Of a stretch of 64,000 bases of DNA, positions 21,733 through 30,652 are shown in pieces. A program made the position numbers and the translations under genes. Position 1 is the first letter of the stretch. Each line of letters starts with the position of its first letter. This stretch comes from Granulosicoccus sp. Lineage in GTDB: Bacteria > Pseudomonadota > Gammaproteobacteria > Granulosicoccales > Granulosicoccaceae. The notes beneath the pieces are model-generated. The model ran no database searches, had not been told where the DNA came from, and saw only the letters and a list, made by a program, of their open reading frames with translations. The DNA is taken from contig JALZVU010000008.1 of NCBI GenBank assembly GCA_023301795.1, positions 62,001-126,000 of the forward strand, written 5' to 3'.

Positions 21733-23802
21733 ATGGTTTTTGCTAAATATACGGTACGCCTACTCACTGGGCTGAATGGCAACAATACCGGAACGATGGC
21801 AAATCAATCAAAACCGCAGTCTGTAACGAAAATAAACACGGCGCTCGCCGCGAATTCAGATGATGAACGTACTGTAGAGGTAGAGGCGCTTCGACAGCAG
21901 ATTCAGTCACTGGAACGGCAGAACATAGAGTCTGGGCGCCACGAAAAGGGTTTACAGGATCAACTGGCTGCGCTGCATAAATCCATTGCTGAAATGGAAG
22001 CTCAGCGTGAAGAATTCGAGACGCTATACAACAACCAGCGCACCGCTGAAACGCGCTACCGCGAACTTTTTGATCTGGCACCAGTGGGCTATATCTCTTT
22101 AAGCTCTGAAGGCATTATCGACAAGGTCAATCTTGCAGCTATCTGGTTTTTAAAAATACCCGGATCCAAATTGATTAACACAGCGTTTTCCACATACTTG
22201 ACGACTGACGATCAGCTAAAACTGCACGAGTACCTGATGCTCGTGGCAAGCTCTCATCTGACGCAGACTTGGGTGGCCAACGTACAGTTGCCTGATGGCA
22301 GCAGCCGTCCTGTGCAGTTCATGTCGAGTGCGATTCGTAGCAGAAAAACTCACAAGCACAGTTACCAGATCATGATCGTCGATATCAGCCAACAGCTGAA
22401 CAATGAAAAACTGCTGCGCAACGCTAAAGATTATCTGGAAGAAATGGCGCACCAGGATCCATTGACCAAGTTGCCTAACCGCACGCTTTTCACTGATAAC
22501 CTTCAGTCTGCAATAGATCGCCGAAGTCGGGATGGCGGGAAAACAGGGGTTATTTACTTCGATTTGGATGGTTTCAAGCCAATTAATGACAGTCTGGGAC
22601 ACGCTGCGGGAGACAACGTTCTTAAGGAGGTTGCGAGCCGCGTCAGTGCGCTGCTGCGTCCTGGCGACAGCATGGCCAGACTCGGTGGCGATGAGTTTAC
22701 TGTGATTATGGATAACCCGGCAGGCGCTGACGATGTTGTTGCTTATGCGCAGGCTATTGCGGAACGTATCAGAGAGCCCTTTAAACTTGATGAGGCGGTC
22801 GTTAGGGTAAGTAGCAGTATCGGTATCAGTTTGTATCCTGATCATGCTGTGAAAATTGATGATCTGGTGAAAGGCGCTGATGCGGCCATGTATCAGGCTA
22901 AGCAAGCGGGACGGGATCAGGTGGTTATGTTTACCCGCGAGTCACTGGAAACCAGTGATAGGCAATCAGTGCTGGAAACCAGTCTGGTGCACGCGGTGCG
23001 TGACGATCAGCTGATCCTGCACTACCAACCGATTTACGACGTTGCCTCATTGAAAGTTGTCTCGGTAGAGGCGTTAGTGCGTTGGGAACACCCAACGCTG
23101 GGGCTTGTCTCTCCGGGCGAGTTTATTCCGCTGGCAGAAAAAACCGACCAGATCGTGGTCATTGGACAGTGGGTGCTGGAGACCGCCTGTCAGCAAGCAC
23201 GGGCATGGCAAATGGCGGGTATCCACACGCCGATAGCCATCAACGTTTCCGGACGACAGCTGGTGAAACCTGATTACGCCTCGAATGTCAGTCTGACGCT
23301 GGCGCGCCATGGTTTGTCGTCAAACGCGATAGAAATTGAAATCACAGAGACGGCTGTGATGCTTGATGATGTGCAGTGTGCACAGTCGTTGCAGCAGCTA
23401 AAGGAAGAGGGTCACATGCTGGCTATCGATGATTTTGGTACAGGCCATTCATCACTGGGGCGTCTGGCTCACTTGCCAGTCTCGCGGTTGAAGATTGATC
23501 GCATATTCATCGCCGATATGGGGCTGTCGAGCAATATGCGCTCACTCATCAGATCGATCATCGTTATGTCTCATGAGCTGGGCTTGCAAGTGGTATCGGA
23601 AGGAATTGAATGTCAGGAACAGTTGGAATTTCTTGCGAAGAACCACTGCGATGCGATTCAGGGCTACATGATGAGTCGCCCTGAACCTGCAGCTGACATC
23701 ACCAAGCTACTGGCATTCAATGCAGGCGCTAACGCTACGCAGTATCAAAGCTCTTCGACTGTGTCTCCCCCATCGGAGCTGTTGAATTCTCTCGAAACAT
23801 GA
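21733..23802 (+). CDS. PAS-GGDEF-EAL cyclic-di-GMP enzyme
   Basis: A 689-residue cytoplasmic protein. An N-terminal coiled coil (about 35-100) leads to a PAS domain (about 105-225), then a GGDEF domain with intact GGDEF at 318-322 and an inhibitory I-site RPGD at 309-312, then an EAL domain with EAL at 446-448, ITETAVM and DDFGTGHSS. Both the synthesis and breakdown sites of cyclic di-GMP look complete, so the net activity depends on the PAS signal. The start could be ATG 21733 or MANQS at 21796. Its last 68 bases overlap the 3' end of the convergent BLUF-CheB-CheR gene. Confidence 0.92.
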   Translation: MVFAKYTVRLLTGLNGNNTGTMANQSKPQSVTKINTALAANSDDERTVEVEALRQQIQSLERQNIESGRHEKGLQDQLAALHKSIAEMEAQREEFETLYNNQRTAETRYRELFDLAPVGYISLSSEGIIDKVNLAAIWFLKIPGSKLINTAFSTYLTTDDQLKLHEYLMLVASSHLTQTWVANVQLPDGSSRPVQFMSSAIRSRKTHKHSYQIMIVDISQQLNNEKLLRNAKDYLEEMAHQDPLTKLPNRTLFTDNLQSAIDRRSRDGGKTGVIYFDLDGFKPINDSLGHAAGDNVLKEVASRVSALLRPGDSMARLGGDEFTVIMDNPAGADDVVAYAQAIAERIREPFKLDEAVVRVSSSIGISLYPDHAVKIDDLVKGADAAMYQAKQAGRDQVVMFTRESLETSDRQSVLETSLVHAVRDDQLILHYQPIYDVASLKVVSVEALVRWEHPTLGLVSPGEFIPLAEKTDQIVVIGQWVLETACQQARAWQMAGIHTPIAINVSGRQLVKPDYASNVSLTLARHGLSSNAIEIEITETAVMLDDVQCAQSLQQLKEEGHMLAIDDFGTGHSSLGRLAHLPVSRLKIDRIFIADMGLSSNMRSLIRSIIVMSHELGLQVVSEGIECQEQLEFLAKNHCDAIQGYMMSRPEPAADITKLLAFNAGANATQYQSSSTVSPPSELLNSLET

Positions 23803-26716
23803 TCAGTACACCTTGCGCCAGTCCACTACTGGCGCGATAAGGGTGGATACCCACGTTTAGCGGGTCAGCATCAACACGTGTGATTTCACGTGTGATGGAT
23901 TTTCCGATAGATAGAACGCGTCGCATGTCGTTGGTAAGTTCTGTGTACTCAAGCTTGTTCGCAAGATCAACAAAGGGGCGGCCGATGTCTGAGGGCAGCA
24001 GATTAACGGTTTGTGTTGCAACCTCAGTGAATCGACGTATGCAAAGATCAGAATCCAGAAATATCACTCCAAGATTCGTACTGTCTAGCAGATTATCAAG
24101 ATCCTGATTAAGATCTGATAACTCATGAATCTTTGTCTGGTATTCAAAGTTAACGGTATACAGCTCTTCATTCACTGACTGCAACTCTTCATTCGTGCTT
24201 TGCAGTTCTTCGTTGGCTGCTGAGAGTTGTTCATTGATTGATCGCTGTTCATCATCCAGTGTTTCCAGATCGTTGATAGCAGCTTCAAGTGCTTTTTTGG
24301 TTTCAGTCAGTTCAAAACGGAGTTCGTCGACCTGTGCCCCATCTGCTTGAGCCTCCCCACTAGTACTGAGCTCTCGAGACTTGCTTTCCGACAGCACCAC
24401 CAGAGCATATTGAGCCGATGTAGGTTTTGCTGGCGTATGTGGAAAGACTTCAATGTCGATTTCCCGGCTTGATTTACCGATAGGTGTGCAGTCGATCTGG
24501 CGATGGGTCACCTCGCTTAAATCCTTGAACGCACGAGCTAGTGCGAAGGTTAACGAGGGTCGGAGCCCTTCGGGTATCATCTTGACGATGTCCAGCGTGG
24601 GTTCGCCACGATGAACCTGCAATAATCCGCTGGGATCAGAGATGACGGTCATCACTGAACGCGAACTGTCCACGAGAATATTGGTGTTGCCTGTGTATTG
24701 AGATACTGCATCAAGTGATAGCCCAAGAATCCCGTTAACCTCCAGGCCATCATTGAGCTGCATGGGCTGAGCTGCCGAGGCAAGCTCTCGAGATGTGTCG
24801 CGTAGTCGTTCAGCCGACAGATGCAGCGGTAAGCGTAAGTTTCGAAGTTTCTTGTATTGATTCCACTCGCGTTGTATCGGGTAGAACTCGCTCTGAAGAT
24901 TACCCAGTGTTTCGGACGGGCCAAGAAAAAGAATGCCATTAACGTTCAGTGCGAAGTGCAGCATCTTGATAGCAATTTGCTGCAGATCAGGTTGCATATA
25001 GATCAACACGTTGCGGCATGTAACAAGATGCATACGTGTGAAAGGTGCATTTTTTATAAAATTGTGCGGGGCAAATATAACGTTTTCGCGAATCTCTCGA
25101 TCGATAACGTAGCCTTCAGCCTTTTTGGTGAAAAAACGCTCCTGGCGCTCTGAACTTACCTGCTCCAGCGCACGTCCACTGTAACAACCTGCACTGGCTA
25201 TTGCTAACGCTTTGCGTTCTATGTCTGTTGCATAAATTTTGAAATTGATGCTTTTGTCCTGATTCTCGAGTATCTCGACCATTATCATGCCCAGGGTGTA
25301 GACCTCCTCACCAGTGGCACACGCGCTAACCCAGATTCTGTAAGTGTCGCCGTCTTTCAGATCACGTTCAATTTGTTGTGCTATCGCGTCAAAGAGTTTT
25401 TCCCAAGCCTCGGGATCGCGAAAAAAGCTTGTCACAGTAATTAGGATATCTTCACGCAGTTCCGTGCGTTCTTGCTCGTCATCGCGCAGGAATGTAAGAT
25501 AATCATCGCTTGAGGTTATGTTGGCAATAACACGGCGGCGCTCAATACGTCTAAACAGTGTTTCGCTTTTGTATTGGGAGAAATCCACATCGTTATCTTC
25601 AAGCAGCGCTACGGCCTTCTCAACATAATCAATGCGCAGTGCAGGCTTGAGGGCTAATGATTCTTGCAGAAATTCGCTGCTTAGATTATTCAGAAAATGC
25701 GCAATATCGATGGGTGCGAGTACCTGATGTACGATCCCCGCATCAATCGACGATTGCGGCATACCGTCAAATTCTGCTGAGCTGACGCTTTGGGCGAGCA
25801 CAACTCCGCCGGCCTCATTGACCACTTTTGCGCCTCTGGATCCATCAGATCCGGTGCCCGAGAGGATAACGGCAATGGCTTTGTCACCGTACTCACGAGC
25901 AATCGATCTGAAACAGATGTCAATGGGGAACTGAGGCCCGCGTCCTGAGCGCTGCTGCTCGTTGAGTTCAAACTTTCCGTTAATGATCTCGAGGTTCTGA
26001 CCGGGGGGAATAACGTAAATATTTCCTGCCTCTATAACAACGTCCCGCTCTGCCGCTTGCACATCCATAGAAGTATCGCGCTGCAGAATCATGTCCATCA
26101 TGGTCTCAGTCTCTGGCGAAAAGTGCTGGATGACGACAAAAGCGGCATCAAGATCTTTCTTGAGACTTCGTACAATGGATTGCAGTGGTGCGAGCCCTCC
26201 TGCCGAGGCGCCTAGCACCACCAGATACGGTGGCTGTTCATCGACGTCAACAGTGGGTAGCGATTTCGTGCCGACCAGCGTACCGGTGTTTGCTTTGTGA
26301 AGCTTTGACATCTGATCCAGCATATCGAGGATGATCCGGCGCGACTCAGTTTCGTCAAATACGTTGCCAGTTGAGGATTTCATGACATCTTCAATTAAAT
26401 CCTGTATTCGAATATCAGGTACACCAGCGCCGGAAATATTGAGCATATCCCAGCGAGTAAAGCGTCTCTGGGTGATATTTCCCAGTTGCAACGTGTGCAC
26501 GATAGTCTGGTGCTGGTCGTTGTTAATCGCTAGGAGAGCAGCCTCTATGGCGTTCTCAGGCCCTTCCAGATATTGGAAAAAGTGCCCTTGTTTCCAGTTG
26601 AGATAGCCGGTTAGGCCAAGCCGGCGATGTCGTTGCAGTGAGCTCGCATAGAGCTCCTTCATCATGGGCTTGTCAAAGGGCTGGTTGGTCTGACTGGCAC
26701 AGGCTATGGCAATCAT
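23735..26716 (-). CDS. BLUF-like/CheB/CheR/PAS fusion protein
   Basis: A 993-residue fusion. Residues 1-100 have the BLUF fold pattern (RRLGLTGYL, GHFFQYLEG with Q48, RRFTRWDM with W89), but the flavin-partner tyrosine is Cys6 and the usual asparagine is His30, so normal BLUF photochemistry is not expected. Residues about 163-345 are a CheB methylesterase with S171, H198 and D291 in place. About 355-620 is a CheR methyltransferase (FFRDPEAW, SACATGEEVYTLG). A long coiled coil with repeated EELQSTNEELQSVNEEL follows, then a C-terminal PAS domain. It ends a run of genes that starts with the kai genes. A GGGAG ribosome site precedes the ATG. Confidence 0.9.
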   Translation of the reverse strand: MIAIACASQTNQPFDKPMMKELYASSLQRHRRLGLTGYLNWKQGHFFQYLEGPENAIEAALLAINNDQHQTIVHTLQLGNITQRRFTRWDMLNISGAGVPDIRIQDLIEDVMKSSTGNVFDETESRRIILDMLDQMSKLHKANTGTLVGTKSLPTVDVDEQPPYLVVLGASAGGLAPLQSIVRSLKKDLDAAFVVIQHFSPETETMMDMILQRDTSMDVQAAERDVVIEAGNIYVIPPGQNLEIINGKFELNEQQRSGRGPQFPIDICFRSIAREYGDKAIAVILSGTGSDGSRGAKVVNEAGGVVLAQSVSSAEFDGMPQSSIDAGIVHQVLAPIDIAHFLNNLSSEFLQESLALKPALRIDYVEKAVALLEDNDVDFSQYKSETLFRRIERRRVIANITSSDDYLTFLRDDEQERTELREDILITVTSFFRDPEAWEKLFDAIAQQIERDLKDGDTYRIWVSACATGEEVYTLGMIMVEILENQDKSINFKIYATDIERKALAIASAGCYSGRALEQVSSERQERFFTKKAEGYVIDREIRENVIFAPHNFIKNAPFTRMHLVTCRNVLIYMQPDLQQIAIKMLHFALNVNGILFLGPSETLGNLQSEFYPIQREWNQYKKLRNLRLPLHLSAERLRDTSRELASAAQPMQLNDGLEVNGILGLSLDAVSQYTGNTNILVDSSRSVMTVISDPSGLLQVHRGEPTLDIVKMIPEGLRPSLTFALARAFKDLSEVTHRQIDCTPIGKSSREIDIEVFPHTPAKPTSAQYALVVLSESKSRELSTSGEAQADGAQVDELRFELTETKKALEAAINDLETLDDEQRSINEQLSAANEELQSTNEELQSVNEELYTVNFEYQTKIHELSDLNQDLDNLLDSTNLGVIFLDSDLCIRRFTEVATQTVNLLPSDIGRPFVDLANKLEYTELTNDMRRVLSIGKSITREITRVDADPLNVGIHPYRASSGLAQGVLIMFRENSTAPMGETQSKSFDTA

Positions 26717-26785: not shown

Positions 26786-27874
26786 TCATAGCTCATCTGG
26801 GTAGCTCTTTGTCGTCGATTCAATGGGAATCGTTATTGATTTACCAGGCAGTGACACATAGACAGTGCTGCCATGGTCTTGGATGGACTCTAGCCAGATC
26901 TTGCCATTATGGGTGCCGACAATTTTCTTGCAGGTGGCAAGGCCAATGCCAGCACCTTGTTTATCGCCATCGGACTGCAGGTGATTAAACGGCTTGAATA
27001 CTTTACTCCAGGAATTTTCTGGGACACCAACGCCATTATCGGCAAAACTCAATAACCATGAATGATCATGTTGTTCAGCGTTGATCATGATTTCTGGCCG
27101 CTCCGAACAGTACTGGAGACTGTTCTGAATCAAATTTTGAAATAACGTTGTCATCTGAGCAATATTACAATCGATAACAGGTAGTACTGCATTTTGGATA
27201 GTTGCTGCAGTTCTAAAAATATCCTCGGACAATGCAGCTTTCACATCTTCTAGTATCTCGTTCAAATCCACATTTGGTGCTTTTTTCTGGCGTGCACTCA
27301 CACGGCTGTAATGTAGTAGGTCATCCACCATACGTTGCATCCGCGCAGTGGTGGTCCGAATCATTTCCACATCCTCCAACGCATCAGAGTTCAAATCGGC
27401 AGAGTGGTCTTTCTGCAGCCAGCCTGACAAGAGGTTCAGGTTTCTCAGTGGGGCACGAATATCATGCGACAAAACAGACGCAAATTCTTCAAGATCCTGA
27501 TTGGAGCGCAGCAGGTCTTTTGTAAGCTGAATACGCTCTGAAATATCCCGCAAGGTTGCCAGCATGGCGGGCTGACCATCCCACTCAATCTGTACTACAC
27601 GCATTTCGGCGATTATTGGTGCCCTGTCAGGTTGTAGTATTTCAATTTCAACACTGCTCCCAGTCAGGTCAGAATAGTGAAATGGTTTGCCCAGAAGTTT
27701 TTTCTGGCTAAGCCCAAACATGAGCATCGCTGCAGGGTTAACAAACCGGATGACAGCATCAGTGCTGGTGACAACGACGCCATCCGGGGAGCTATTCACA
27801 ACGTTCTGGAACCGGGCATTACTAGCCTGAAGTTCTGCAACAGCGATTACCTGCTCATCGGCCTGTGCGTCCAT
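26786..27874 (-). CDS. PAS-domain sensor histidine kinase, soluble
   Basis: A 362-residue cytoplasmic kinase. The PAS domain covers about 20-115 (FVNPAAMLMFGLS). The dimerisation helix has H137 in VLSHDIRAPLRNL. The ATPase domain has FQNLIQNSLQYC, DNGVGV and GAGIGLATCKKIV. There are no membrane helices. It lies 116 bases after kaiC and 69 before the BLUF-CheB-CheR gene, all on one strand. It lacks the KaiB-like sensor domain of SasA, so if it reads the Kai state it does so by other contacts; it may phosphorylate the receiver protein encoded first in the operon. Confidence 0.88.
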   Translation of the reverse strand: MDAQADEQVIAVAELQASNARFQNVVNSSPDGVVVTSTDAVIRFVNPAAMLMFGLSQKKLLGKPFHYSDLTGSSVEIEILQPDRAPIIAEMRVVQIEWDGQPAMLATLRDISERIQLTKDLLRSNQDLEEFASVLSHDIRAPLRNLNLLSGWLQKDHSADLNSDALEDVEMIRTTTARMQRMVDDLLHYSRVSARQKKAPNVDLNEILEDVKAALSEDIFRTAATIQNAVLPVIDCNIAQMTTLFQNLIQNSLQYCSERPEIMINAEQHDHSWLLSFADNGVGVPENSWSKVFKPFNHLQSDGDKQGAGIGLATCKKIVGTHNGKIWLESIQDHGSTVYVSLPGKSITIPIESTTKSYPDEL

Positions 27875-27990: not shown

Positions 27991-29505
27991 CTAGACGTCA
28001 TCAAACATTTCCTTGAATCGTGTCGATTCTGGTGTCTGATGATATTGCGGATTGCCGGTGAGGATACCTGTGATATTTCTGAACGGCTTACCCACATGCA
28101 TCCCTGTCTGGTCGATGGAGTATTCGCGAATATCTTTTTCATGCAGAGAGCCGCGCATTTTTAGCACTGCTATGCCACGGCTGATTTCACCGAATAACTC
28201 CACGTAGCGAAGCAGTACGATGGAATCGGTGACGGTGGAAATATGTGCTTCGGTAATACTGGTGCCGCCCATAAGAGACGGTGTTACCGAGGTAAACACA
28301 CCCACGGTTTCCACCTGCTTTATGTAGGAGGTGAGCCCGATGACAAACTCGCGAAAACTCTTCGGAGTAGCGCCTCGTTCCAGTGCCGACAAGCTATCTA
28401 CTGCAATGCGGGTGGGTCTGAACTCATCGATTACCTTCTTCATGTTAACCAGATGCTCTTCAAGACCGGTGGTTTCCGGATAGGCACAGACCACCTTGAG
28501 CAGGCCCTGTTGCTCCATTGTTCTGAAATCCACACCCCAGCCTTCTGCATTTCGAAACAACTGGTCTCGGCTTTCCTCAAAGGCAAAAAACAGGCTGCGC
28601 TCCTCTTTGGTTGCACCGCTGATAAAGCTTGTGGCCATAAGCGTTTTGCCGGTGCCTGTGGCTCCTGATATCAACACAATGGAGTCTTGAAAAAAACCAC
28701 CGCCGCACATGCTGTCGAGCTTTTCGATTCCGGACGTGACGCGAATAGTAGAGGAGCGATGATTGAGCAATACAGTGGATAGGGGTACGCCGACGATACC
28801 ACCATCAGACACGATGCTGAATGGGTGTTCGCCTTTCTGATGATCGGTACCCCGAAATTTTAGTATCTCCATGGTTCGACGACGGCTTTCAGCCTCGAGC
28901 ACGTTACGTAGAATAATGACGTTGTCAGCGACAAACTCTTCGATGCCATGTCGGGCAATTTCGCCGTATTCCTCATTTCGCTCTGCTGTCATCAGGGCAG
29001 TAACGCCGAGTTTTTTAAGCGCAACAGAAATGCGAAGAAGCTCGCTTCTGACGATATGCTGATCGAGGAATTTGCTAAAAATGGCGCCTAATGAATCGAT
29101 CGATACTCGAGTGGCCCCAATCTTTTTTATCGCATGTTCTATTCTTGCGATCAGTGCTCCAAGATCGTAGTCACCACTGACAATGCTCACATCCGCGGGC
29201 TTGGGAGATGCATCGACAAAGCTCCACAGCTTTTGATCTTCCCATTGCTGAATATTCCATCCGAAGCTGAGCATATTCTGACGAATATCTTCAGGCGTCT
29301 CTTCGAAGGTCACAAAAACGCATTTGTCGTTTTTCTGCATGACACCACAGGCGAGAAACTGCACGGCGAAAACAGTCTTTGAGCTTCCCGCAGTGCCCGC
29401 CAATAGCGTCGTTCTACCTTTGGGGATACCGCCATTAGAGATTGCGTCGAAACCTGCAATGCCTGTCGCCAGTTTCTTGACAATGTTTAGAGAGGTTTCA
29501 TTCAT
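27991..29505 (-). CDS. kaiC: circadian clock ATPase KaiC
   Basis: A 504-residue double-RecA protein. CI has a Walker A of GTAGSSKT (37-44), unusual in lacking the Gly before Lys, and the catalytic pair E68-E69. CII has GATGTGKT (281-288) and E310-E311. The phosphorylation region ITEAHIST keeps S423 and T424, matching S431/T432 of Synechococcus KaiC, and T418, matching T426. The C-terminal tail (about 478-504) corresponds to the A-loop and KaiA-binding peptide. It should autophosphorylate, dephosphorylate and hydrolyse ATP slowly as a hexamer. Its start overlaps the kaiB stop (ATGA). Confidence 0.95.
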   Translation of the reverse strand: MNETSLNIVKKLATGIAGFDAISNGGIPKGRTTLLAGTAGSSKTVFAVQFLACGVMQKNDKCVFVTFEETPEDIRQNMLSFGWNIQQWEDQKLWSFVDASPKPADVSIVSGDYDLGALIARIEHAIKKIGATRVSIDSLGAIFSKFLDQHIVRSELLRISVALKKLGVTALMTAERNEEYGEIARHGIEEFVADNVIILRNVLEAESRRRTMEILKFRGTDHQKGEHPFSIVSDGGIVGVPLSTVLLNHRSSTIRVTSGIEKLDSMCGGGFFQDSIVLISGATGTGKTLMATSFISGATKEERSLFFAFEESRDQLFRNAEGWGVDFRTMEQQGLLKVVCAYPETTGLEEHLVNMKKVIDEFRPTRIAVDSLSALERGATPKSFREFVIGLTSYIKQVETVGVFTSVTPSLMGGTSITEAHISTVTDSIVLLRYVELFGEISRGIAVLKMRGSLHEKDIREYSIDQTGMHVGKPFRNITGILTGNPQYHQTPESTRFKEMFDDV

Positions 29506-29804
29506 GCTTCATTCAAATCTCGAAGGTACGCGGCTGGAGACAGGTCCAGTCCACGCAGGAGTAACGCCTTATCGGACAGATCACCGATGGTTCGTCGTTC
29601 AGGTTCTGGAGTCACTTTCACCAAGGTGGGTGTTGCCAAAATGAACTCATCCTCGGCTGCTTGAGGGTTAGCCAGTACATCGATAATGAGGAGATCGAAA
29701 TCATCAATGCCGATTTGTGACAAGGTCAATTCAAGGTTGGAAATCGCAGCATCGGATCTCATGGATCTGCCAGATACGAATAGCTTTAGCGATAACCGAG
29801 TCAT
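29502..29804 (-). CDS. kaiB: clock protein KaiB
   Basis: A 100-residue thioredoxin-like protein with the KaiB core: LSLKLFVSG, IIDVLANPQAAED, ILATPTLVKV, RRTIGDLSD and LLRGLDL. KaiB switches fold and binds phosphorylated KaiC, favouring its dephosphorylation. The length and motifs match cyanobacterial KaiB closely. Its ATG overlaps the stop of the receiver/KaiA-like gene, and its stop overlaps the kaiC start, so all three are translationally coupled and probably made in fixed ratio. Confidence 0.95.
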   Translation of the reverse strand: MTRLSLKLFVSGRSMRSDAAISNLELTLSQIGIDDFDLLIIDVLANPQAAEDEFILATPTLVKVTPEPERRTIGDLSDKALLLRGLDLSPAAYLRDLNEA

Positions 29805-30652
29805 AGAGCGTCAGCCCTTGGTTTGGCAGAGTCTAACTGCGTATTGGCGCGATTCATGTAGAAGTAACATAAGTGCCCCATCAACCCCGACAGTAAATAA
29901 CGCGCTTCCTCATGGCACAGTGCATTTTTTTGCGCTGGTAGTTCGTCAAGCTTGATGGCTACACACACCGTGTGTACCTGCATAACATCACGAGGTGATG
30001 CGCCGTGCAAGCCTAATGTCTCCGCAAGGTCTTTAAGTAACTTGGACAGATTCACTGAGCGCACTTGATATTCACGGCGTTCCAGTGAATGGCTGATCAT
30101 GTTCCCGTAGGTATCGATAGCTTGTTTGAAAATTGTCGGGAACTCAGCCTTTAACGAGTTGCTTTTTGAGGAAGCTTGCGCTGGGGAATCTGATGCGATG
30201 TTAGCGTCGGATTGTAATCGCTGCAATTCAAGTTCGCGGCGAGTGATCTGTCGGATGTCATGTAACTCTTCGAGAAGCCCATACCTCTCTATGGCATAGC
30301 ACAGAGTTCGTCGCAAAAGCAGTGGCTCCATCTGATCTTTAAACAAGTAGTCTTGTGCGCCGTGCTGTACCGCTTTTAGTGCAGTACTCTCATCGTGAGT
30401 GTTGGATAGGACAACAACCGGAGTTGATACTTGCTGTGTGAATGCATCGATTGTGGAAAACCCTTCGCTATCAGGTAACGATAGGTCGAGTAGAACAACA
30501 TCGAAATGCTCATCGCTAATGAATGTAACCCCTTGTTCAAGGGTCTGAGCGTGTATTAGTTTAAAGCTGGGGTAGCTGCGCAGGGCACGTTGCAGCAGCT
30601 TGAAGTCAATTGGATTGTCTTCCACAACCAGCACGGACAGGGTGCGATCCAT
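29801..30652 (-). CDS. response-regulator receiver fused to a KaiA-like C-terminal domain
   Basis: Counting from ATG 30652, a 283-residue protein. Residues 5-120 are a receiver domain with E11-D12, phospho-acceptor D56 (VVLLDLSLP), S83 and K105. After a charged linker, residues about 168-268 form a helical domain whose last half (LAETLGLHGASPRDVMQVHT through LLSGLMGHLCYFYM) lines up with the C-terminal domain of cyanobacterial KaiA: the xVxxVH and RxxLxxxxxHLCxxY positions match with nearly equal spacing. RsbU N-terminal domains share this fold, so that is the alternative. It begins the kai operon and overlaps kaiB. An upstream in-frame GTG at 30724 is possible, but TATAAT at 30698-30703 lies inside that extension. 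Confidence 0.75.
   Translation of the reverse strand: MDRTLSVLVVEDNPIDFKLLQRALRSYPSFKLIHAQTLEQGVTFISDEHFDVVLLDLSLPDSEGFSTIDAFTQQVSTPVVVLSNTHDESTALKAVQHGAQDYLFKDQMEPLLLRRTLCYAIERYGLLEELHDIRQITRRELELQRLQSDANIASDSPAQASSKSNSLKAEFPTIFKQAIDTYGNMISHSLERREYQVRSVNLSKLLKDLAETLGLHGASPRDVMQVHTVCVAIKLDELPAQKNALCHEEARYLLSGLMGHLCYFYMNRANTQLDSAKPRADAL

Follow-up and report, generated by a model that had tools for sequence, protein, structure and literature searches.

The kai locus of Granulosicoccus

The window, a stretch of 64,000 nucleotides from the 5.78-Mb genome of a marine Granulosicoccus species, contains five minus-strand genes in the order kaiA3, kaiB, kaiC, PAS-HisKA-HATPase kinase, and BLUF-CheB-CheR-PAS protein. 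The genes and their principal features are as follows.

29801..30652, minus strand: kaiA3, 283 aa, with a receiver and a C-terminal domain of the KaiA type (ORF, Pfam, family profiles, fold)
30278..30652, minus strand: receiver domain of KaiA3 (residues 1-125), phospho-acceptor D56 at 30485-30487 (PF00072, E 5.5e-19)
29804..30196, minus strand: KaiA-type helical C-terminal domain of KaiA3 (residues 153-283; AF2 model, VIA, family profile)
29502..29804, minus strand: kaiB, 100 aa (Pfam KaiB, E 7.4e-20; ATGA overlap with kaiA3)
27991..29505, minus strand: kaiC, KaiC3 type, 504 aa (TIGR02655, 629.8 bits; tree; ATGA overlap with kaiB)
28234-28239, minus strand: phosphosites S423/T424 of kaiC (site alignment)
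26786..27874, minus strand: PAS-HisKA-HATPase sensor kinase, H137 at 27464-27466 (Pfam); candidate partner of the KaiA3 receiver
23735..26716, minus strand: BLUF-CheB-CheR-PAS protein, 993 aa; Cys6 at 26699-26701 (Pfam)

The overlaps of kaiA3 with kaiB and of kaiB with kaiC noted in the initial annotation are real, with an ATGA at both junctions; according to the coordinates, kaiC is separated from the kinase gene by 116 bases and the latter from the BLUF-CheB-CheR gene by 69 bases. All five genes, from kaiA3 to the BLUF-CheB-CheR gene, likely form one predicted operon. The start codon of kaiA3 is the ATG at 30652; a longer version with a GTG start that extends to 30724 was set aside because the homologs align at the ATG. 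A gene on the plus strand (21733-23802), which by eye encodes a PAS-GGDEF-EAL-like protein, is convergent with the BLUF-CheB-CheR gene, their 3' ends overlapping by 68 bases.

The order of the five cassette genes is identical in each of the four Granulosicoccus loci for which sufficient sequence is available, and the PAS-HisKA-HATPase kinase has the same place in the intact loci of the genus. Orthologs of the BLUF-CheB protein (at least 61% identity over 345 residues) are encoded by each of the six KaiC3-positive genomes and by none of the other 42 genomes of the family (n = 48; Fisher p 8e-8, a value that overstates independence because the genomes are related). Contamination was rejected as a source of the cassette because it is shared by other Granulosicoccus genomes, in part on long contigs. 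The genome that harbors the window also contains pufL- and pufM-type genes, which makes aerobic anoxygenic phototrophy of the host probable; pufLM have been reported for kelp-associated Granulosicoccus (PMC9238374). Within the family, pufLM-type genes are present in four of the six KaiC3-positive genomes vs. six of the 42 others (p 0.013), a weak association among related genomes.

Residues 7-112 of KaiA3 match Response_reg in Pfam (E 5.5e-19), and the active site of the receiver (acidic pair E11/D12, D56, S/T83, and K105) is kept in all 29 aligned relatives, which confirms the intact receiver that had been recognized by its D56. The protein thus has the N-terminal receiver with a phospho-acceptor Asp that is typical of KaiA3, and D56 distinguishes it from canonical KaiA. 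The motif VMQVH begins at residue 223 and the motif R..L.....HLC..Y at residue 251; their spacing is, as had been proposed for VxQVH and RxxLxxxxxHLCxxY, almost the same as in KaiA sequences (H-to-R, 24 vs. 25 residues; R-to-H, nine residues in both). Several other members of the family (L043, L044, L060, L077, L100, and others) possess longer N-terminal parts and a total length of up to ~600 aa. Single-sequence searches found no receiver in these parts; the N-terminal domains of long family members may differ, or the receiver search may be too weak.

Relationship of the C-terminal domain to KaiA

The homology of the window protein with KaiA becomes visible only with family profiles. Searches of Pfam, NCBIfam, and the PDB with the single sequence matched only the receiver; therefore, family profiles were used. 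The Pfam model of KaiA (PF07688) gave no match at its cut-off in the window protein or anywhere else in the host genome. A profile of the C-terminal domains of five Granulosicoccus proteins, run on 398 Pseudomonadota genomes, detected relatives in 22 of them (the window's own included), and the matches adjoin kaiB/kaiC wherever the flanks are readable. A 21-row profile, run on 85,000 genomes, yielded 80 named loci, 71 of which are adjoined by kaiB or kaiC; the other nine are without kaiB/kaiC in the available sequence, and at least two of these are cut by contig ends, while several are Chloroflexota receiver-KaiA genes adjoined by a kinase gene. Viral collections yielded nothing.

When compared with the PDB, a shallow 27-row profile of the family matched KaiA at E values that are suggestive only (0.2-0.8). 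A 75-row profile, which contains no canonical KaiA, has KaiA as all five of its top matches in the PDB (best E 0.0018), and RsbU is not among the matches. In a set of 6,585 ORFs, the sole matches of the same profile outside the family are 11 of 12 canonical cyanobacterial KaiA proteins (E 7e-5 to 6e-3).

The initial annotation had allowed for an RsbU_N-like domain of the same fold instead of KaiA. The N-terminal domain of RsbU (RsbU_N, PF08673) indeed belongs to the same fold superfamily and shows detectable profile similarity to the C-terminal domain of KaiA3, but it is the weaker relative, and KaiA is ahead in each test that scores both. With hhalign, the family is aligned to 22 KaiA sequences at 89.9% over 90 columns and to RsbU_N at 86.7% over 57 columns, which is a small margin. 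Pfam KaiA matches 10 of the 75 family members (best 7.1e-6), and RsbU_N matches six (best 0.0044).

Because a VIA search with the whole protein was swamped by receivers, the C-terminal domain was modeled alone. The best VIA matches of the AF2 model (pLDDT 90.3, pTM 0.79) are KaiA entries at Z scores of 10-11.3, which are inflated in helical bundles; the stressosome-type helical domain 3zta, at a Z score of 10.6, is level with KaiA. Foldseek also ranked KaiA first, but with a weak E value (0.14). RsbU itself is not among the listed fold matches of the domain, which has no bearing either way.

The proposed alignment with the KaiC-binding domain of KaiA is borne out by the family profiles, hhalign, and the fold, and we interpret it as genuine KaiA homology inside the KaiA/RsbU superfamily. 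That the domain is instead an RsbU_N-like regulator with a partner-switch or stressosome-like action, as might be argued from its similarity to RsbU_N and 3zta, is highly improbable, considering the lead of KaiA in the profile comparisons, the restriction of the PDB matches to KaiA, the linkage of the C-terminal-domain genes with kaiB/kaiC, and a window protein that is without a phosphatase domain (Pfam).

KaiC type and spread of receiver-KaiA genes

In a KaiC tree computed with a quick method and SH-aLRT support, the cyanobacterial KaiC1 proteins linked to canonical KaiA and the KaiC2-like proteins without KaiA each form their own clade (support 100, starred, in both cases). The KaiC of the window clusters apart from both, with the KaiC3 proteins linked to KaiA3. 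This large group comprises cyanobacterial KaiC3s and proteins from Roseiflexus, Rhodospirillaceae, Magnetococcales, and Granulosicoccus; the KaiC of Granulosicoccus genome G036 is labeled L197, and its contig begins inside the gene. As expected of a KaiC3, the window KaiC possesses Ser-Thr phosphosites (S423/T424) and two complete ATPase domains, with the two Walker A motifs and the two EE pairs all present. The tree of the linked KaiC proteins and the recovery in one profile scan place the window protein with the cyanobacterial and Roseiflexus KaiA3 systems. In five Granulosicoccus loci, the gene is located directly upstream of kaiB3 and kaiC3, which is the order usually found for kaiA3. The suggested resemblance to the receiver-KaiA architecture of the KaiA3 type has thus been substantiated and includes a linked KaiC of the KaiC3 type. 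Judging from the sequence data (receiver-KaiA architecture, KaiA homology, type of the linked KaiC, order of the genes, and conservation of the kinase and BLUF-CheBR partners), the Granulosicoccus locus is almost certainly a KaiA3-KaiB3-KaiC3 system.

Among 299 Pseudomonadota genomes, KaiA3 is encoded in the flanks of KaiC genes scoring above 600 bits wherever these are readable, and is absent from the flanks of KaiCs near 560 bits (n = 2) and of full-length KaiCs near 360 bits (n = 7). The premise that proteobacterial kaiBC loci are without kaiA is out of date, given this pattern and the KaiA3 proteins of Rhodospirillum and Bradyrhizobium that have already been listed (PMC11372060).

The 80 named loci are distributed over at least 14 phyla; one of them is from a Helarchaeota MAG, and binning errors are possible. 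The Helarchaeota locus (Candidatus Helarchaeota, JAHPZH010000004.1; L049) is located on a 604-kb contig, on which another kaiB-kaiC pair and kinases come after KaiA3-kaiB-kaiC; it is either a genuine Kai system of an archaeon or the result of erroneous binning. Many carriers of KaiA3 have magnetotactic names (L061, L071, L074, L075, L078, L096, and others), such as Magnetococcales and Candidatus Magnetobacterium, Magnetominusculus, and Magnetocorallium.

A second, shorter receiver-KaiA type matches the window profile more weakly (L035-L038, L040, L041, L179-L182, L071:4570-7424, L079:9768-12407, and L095:3949-6637). Several of its loci read kaiB, kaiA-like, kaiB, kaiC and have their own KaiC clade (support 100, starred), and at times such a locus shares an organism with a KaiA3 locus. 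In Chloroflexota (L057, L080, L083, L088, L116, and L121), the receiver-KaiA gene is directly followed by a histidine kinase gene, with no kaiB/kaiC in the available flanks. Because of this arrangement, the KaiA-type domain does not seem to be used only next to KaiC and may have a use without it; some of these genomes also possess a separate KaiA3-kaiBC locus.

Proposed signal input and comparison with known Kai systems

The BLUF domain encoded at the end of the cassette has a gapless Pfam match and is placed on AppA and BlrB by PDB alignments. The photoactive tyrosine of BLUF domains stands 42 residues before a conserved glutamine (Y21/Q63 in AppA, Y8/Q50 in PixD). The glutamine is kept as Gln48, and position 6, which by this spacing we take to be that of the tyrosine, is Cys in all six orthologs. 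Ordinary BLUF photochemistry of the BLUF-CheB-CheR-PAS protein is therefore doubtful, and its interpretation as a blue-light photoreceptor was withdrawn. The BLUF-CheB-CheR gene was not seen in the flanks read of the other named KaiA3 loci, and nothing relevant on BLUF together with CheB/CheR and KaiC was retrieved in a literature search.

As a whole, the locus is best explained as a KaiA3-KaiB3-KaiC3 system that includes a dedicated input module, and we assign this explanation a probability of about 0.65. By analogy with the biochemistry of KaiA3B3C3 in Synechocystis, the C-terminal domain of KaiA3 would dimerize, bind KaiC3, and raise its autophosphorylation at S423/T424, and KaiB3 would favor the dephosphorylation of KaiC3, resulting in a slow phosphorylation cycle. 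The logic of the operon suggests that the PAS kinase might phosphorylate D56 of KaiA3 and thereby determine either the phase of the cycle or its amplitude. The PAS kinase, in turn, might receive its input from the BLUF-CheB-CheR-PAS protein, either as a flavin-related signal (redox or light) or through the methyl chemistry of CheR/CheB. It is quite unlikely that all of this adds up to a KaiABC clock that is self-contained and gated by a phosphorelay in a host with aerobic anoxygenic phototrophy. Such a clock would combine the oscillator with the cognate KaiA3 kinase still missing in Synechocystis and with a BLUF-CheB-CheR sensor of a non-canonical kind, which would entrain the oscillator via flavin redox or methylation, not via ordinary BLUF photochemistry.

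The assignment of the PAS kinase to the input of KaiA3 has to be weighed against a SasA-like output kinase read by KaiC, which is possible, if somewhat doubtful. Outside cyanobacteria, kaiC is commonly followed by a kinase gene (PMC3164672), but the kinase of the cassette differs from SasA in having a PAS domain and lacking a KaiB-like one, and no receiver other than that of KaiA3 was found in the products of the five genes (Pfam).

A fair rival to the oscillator, although in our estimate an unlikely one, is a driven switch or hourglass, in which KaiA3 is correctly identified but the kinase sets its activity upon a stimulus and the phosphorylation of KaiC merely reports it. The KaiBC system of Rhodobacter is an hourglass timer, even KaiA3B3C3 of Synechocystis is damped in vitro (PMC11372060), and the patchy spread over six of 48 family genomes fits an accessory function. 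However, all three oscillator parts and both phosphosites of KaiC are kept in Granulosicoccus, and KaiA3 and KaiB3 give phosphorylation cycling of KaiC3 in Synechocystis.

The presence of KaiA outside cyanobacteria is not new, because KaiA3 homologs from Rhodospirillum, Bradyrhizobium, Roseiflexus, and others were published with the KaiA3 type by Köbler et al. in 2024 (PMC11372060). The same authors rebuilt a damped oscillator from the Synechocystis proteins and stated that the cognate kinase of the KaiA3 receiver is not identified, which makes this receiver a puzzle. What appears to be new is the host (a gammaproteobacterium with pufLM), the spread over at least 14 phyla, and the fixed cassette of five genes, which includes those of a PAS kinase and a BLUF-CheB-CheR-PAS protein. 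A literature search retrieved no paper that names both Granulosicoccus and kaiC, and a search of Dvornyk & Mei (2021) for non-cyanobacterial terms found none. With a kinase gene and a BLUF-CheB-CheR gene behind the clock genes, the latter in exactly the KaiC3-bearing genomes of the family, the question of input becomes directly testable with five genes. Receiver-KaiA genes adjoin kaiB and kaiC in many lineages beyond the five non-cyanobacterial genera of the 2024 list; Kai systems with three parts should therefore not be regarded as peculiar to cyanobacteria. Since the current Pfam model of KaiA misses most KaiA3 proteins, annotations of kaiBC without kaiA deserve rechecking.

Among the known systems, the hourglass of the Rhodobacter type (KaiC2) shares with Granulosicoccus the presence of kaiB and kaiC in a proteobacterium, but KaiA3 is missing from the flanks read of the KaiC2-like loci in our sample (~360 bits), and the single KaiC of this kind that was aligned carries a long C-terminal extension. 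Canonical cyanobacterial KaiABC has a homologous C-terminal domain of KaiA (PF07688), the A-B-C gene order, and both phosphosites of KaiC; it differs in the pseudoreceiver of KaiA, which is without a phospho-acceptor Asp (PMC11372060), and in its KaiC, as the KaiC of the window is not a member of the KaiC1 clade and ends in a different, shorter tail. The KaiA3 loci of Rhodospirillum and Pararhodospirillum (Rru_A3293 of R. rubrum, PMC10931921; L087 and L094) have the same kaiA3-kaiB-kaiC order, and in the KaiC tree their proteins form the group nearest to Granulosicoccus (support 92, not starred). By contrast, their flanks, as far as read, contain no BLUF-CheBR gene, and the phosphosites in the KaiC of L087 are Ser-Ser.

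The KaiA3-KaiB3-KaiC3 system of Synechocystis sp. PCC 6803 (sll0485 and partners; PMC11372060) is found in a cyanobacterium with kaiC3 located elsewhere and no known cognate kinase, whereas the host of the Granulosicoccus system is a gammaproteobacterium whose genome is without a Pfam KaiA match and whose clock genes are followed by those of the kinase and the BLUF-CheB-CheR-PAS protein. Both systems have in common a KaiA3 that combines a NarL-type receiver, with a conserved Asp, and a KaiA-type C-terminal domain, the position of kaiA3 upstream of kaiB3, and the phosphosites Ser423/Thr424 of KaiC3, which bear the same residue numbers. The kaiA3-kaiB3-kaiC3 synteny of Granulosicoccus is that of most KaiA3 relatives.
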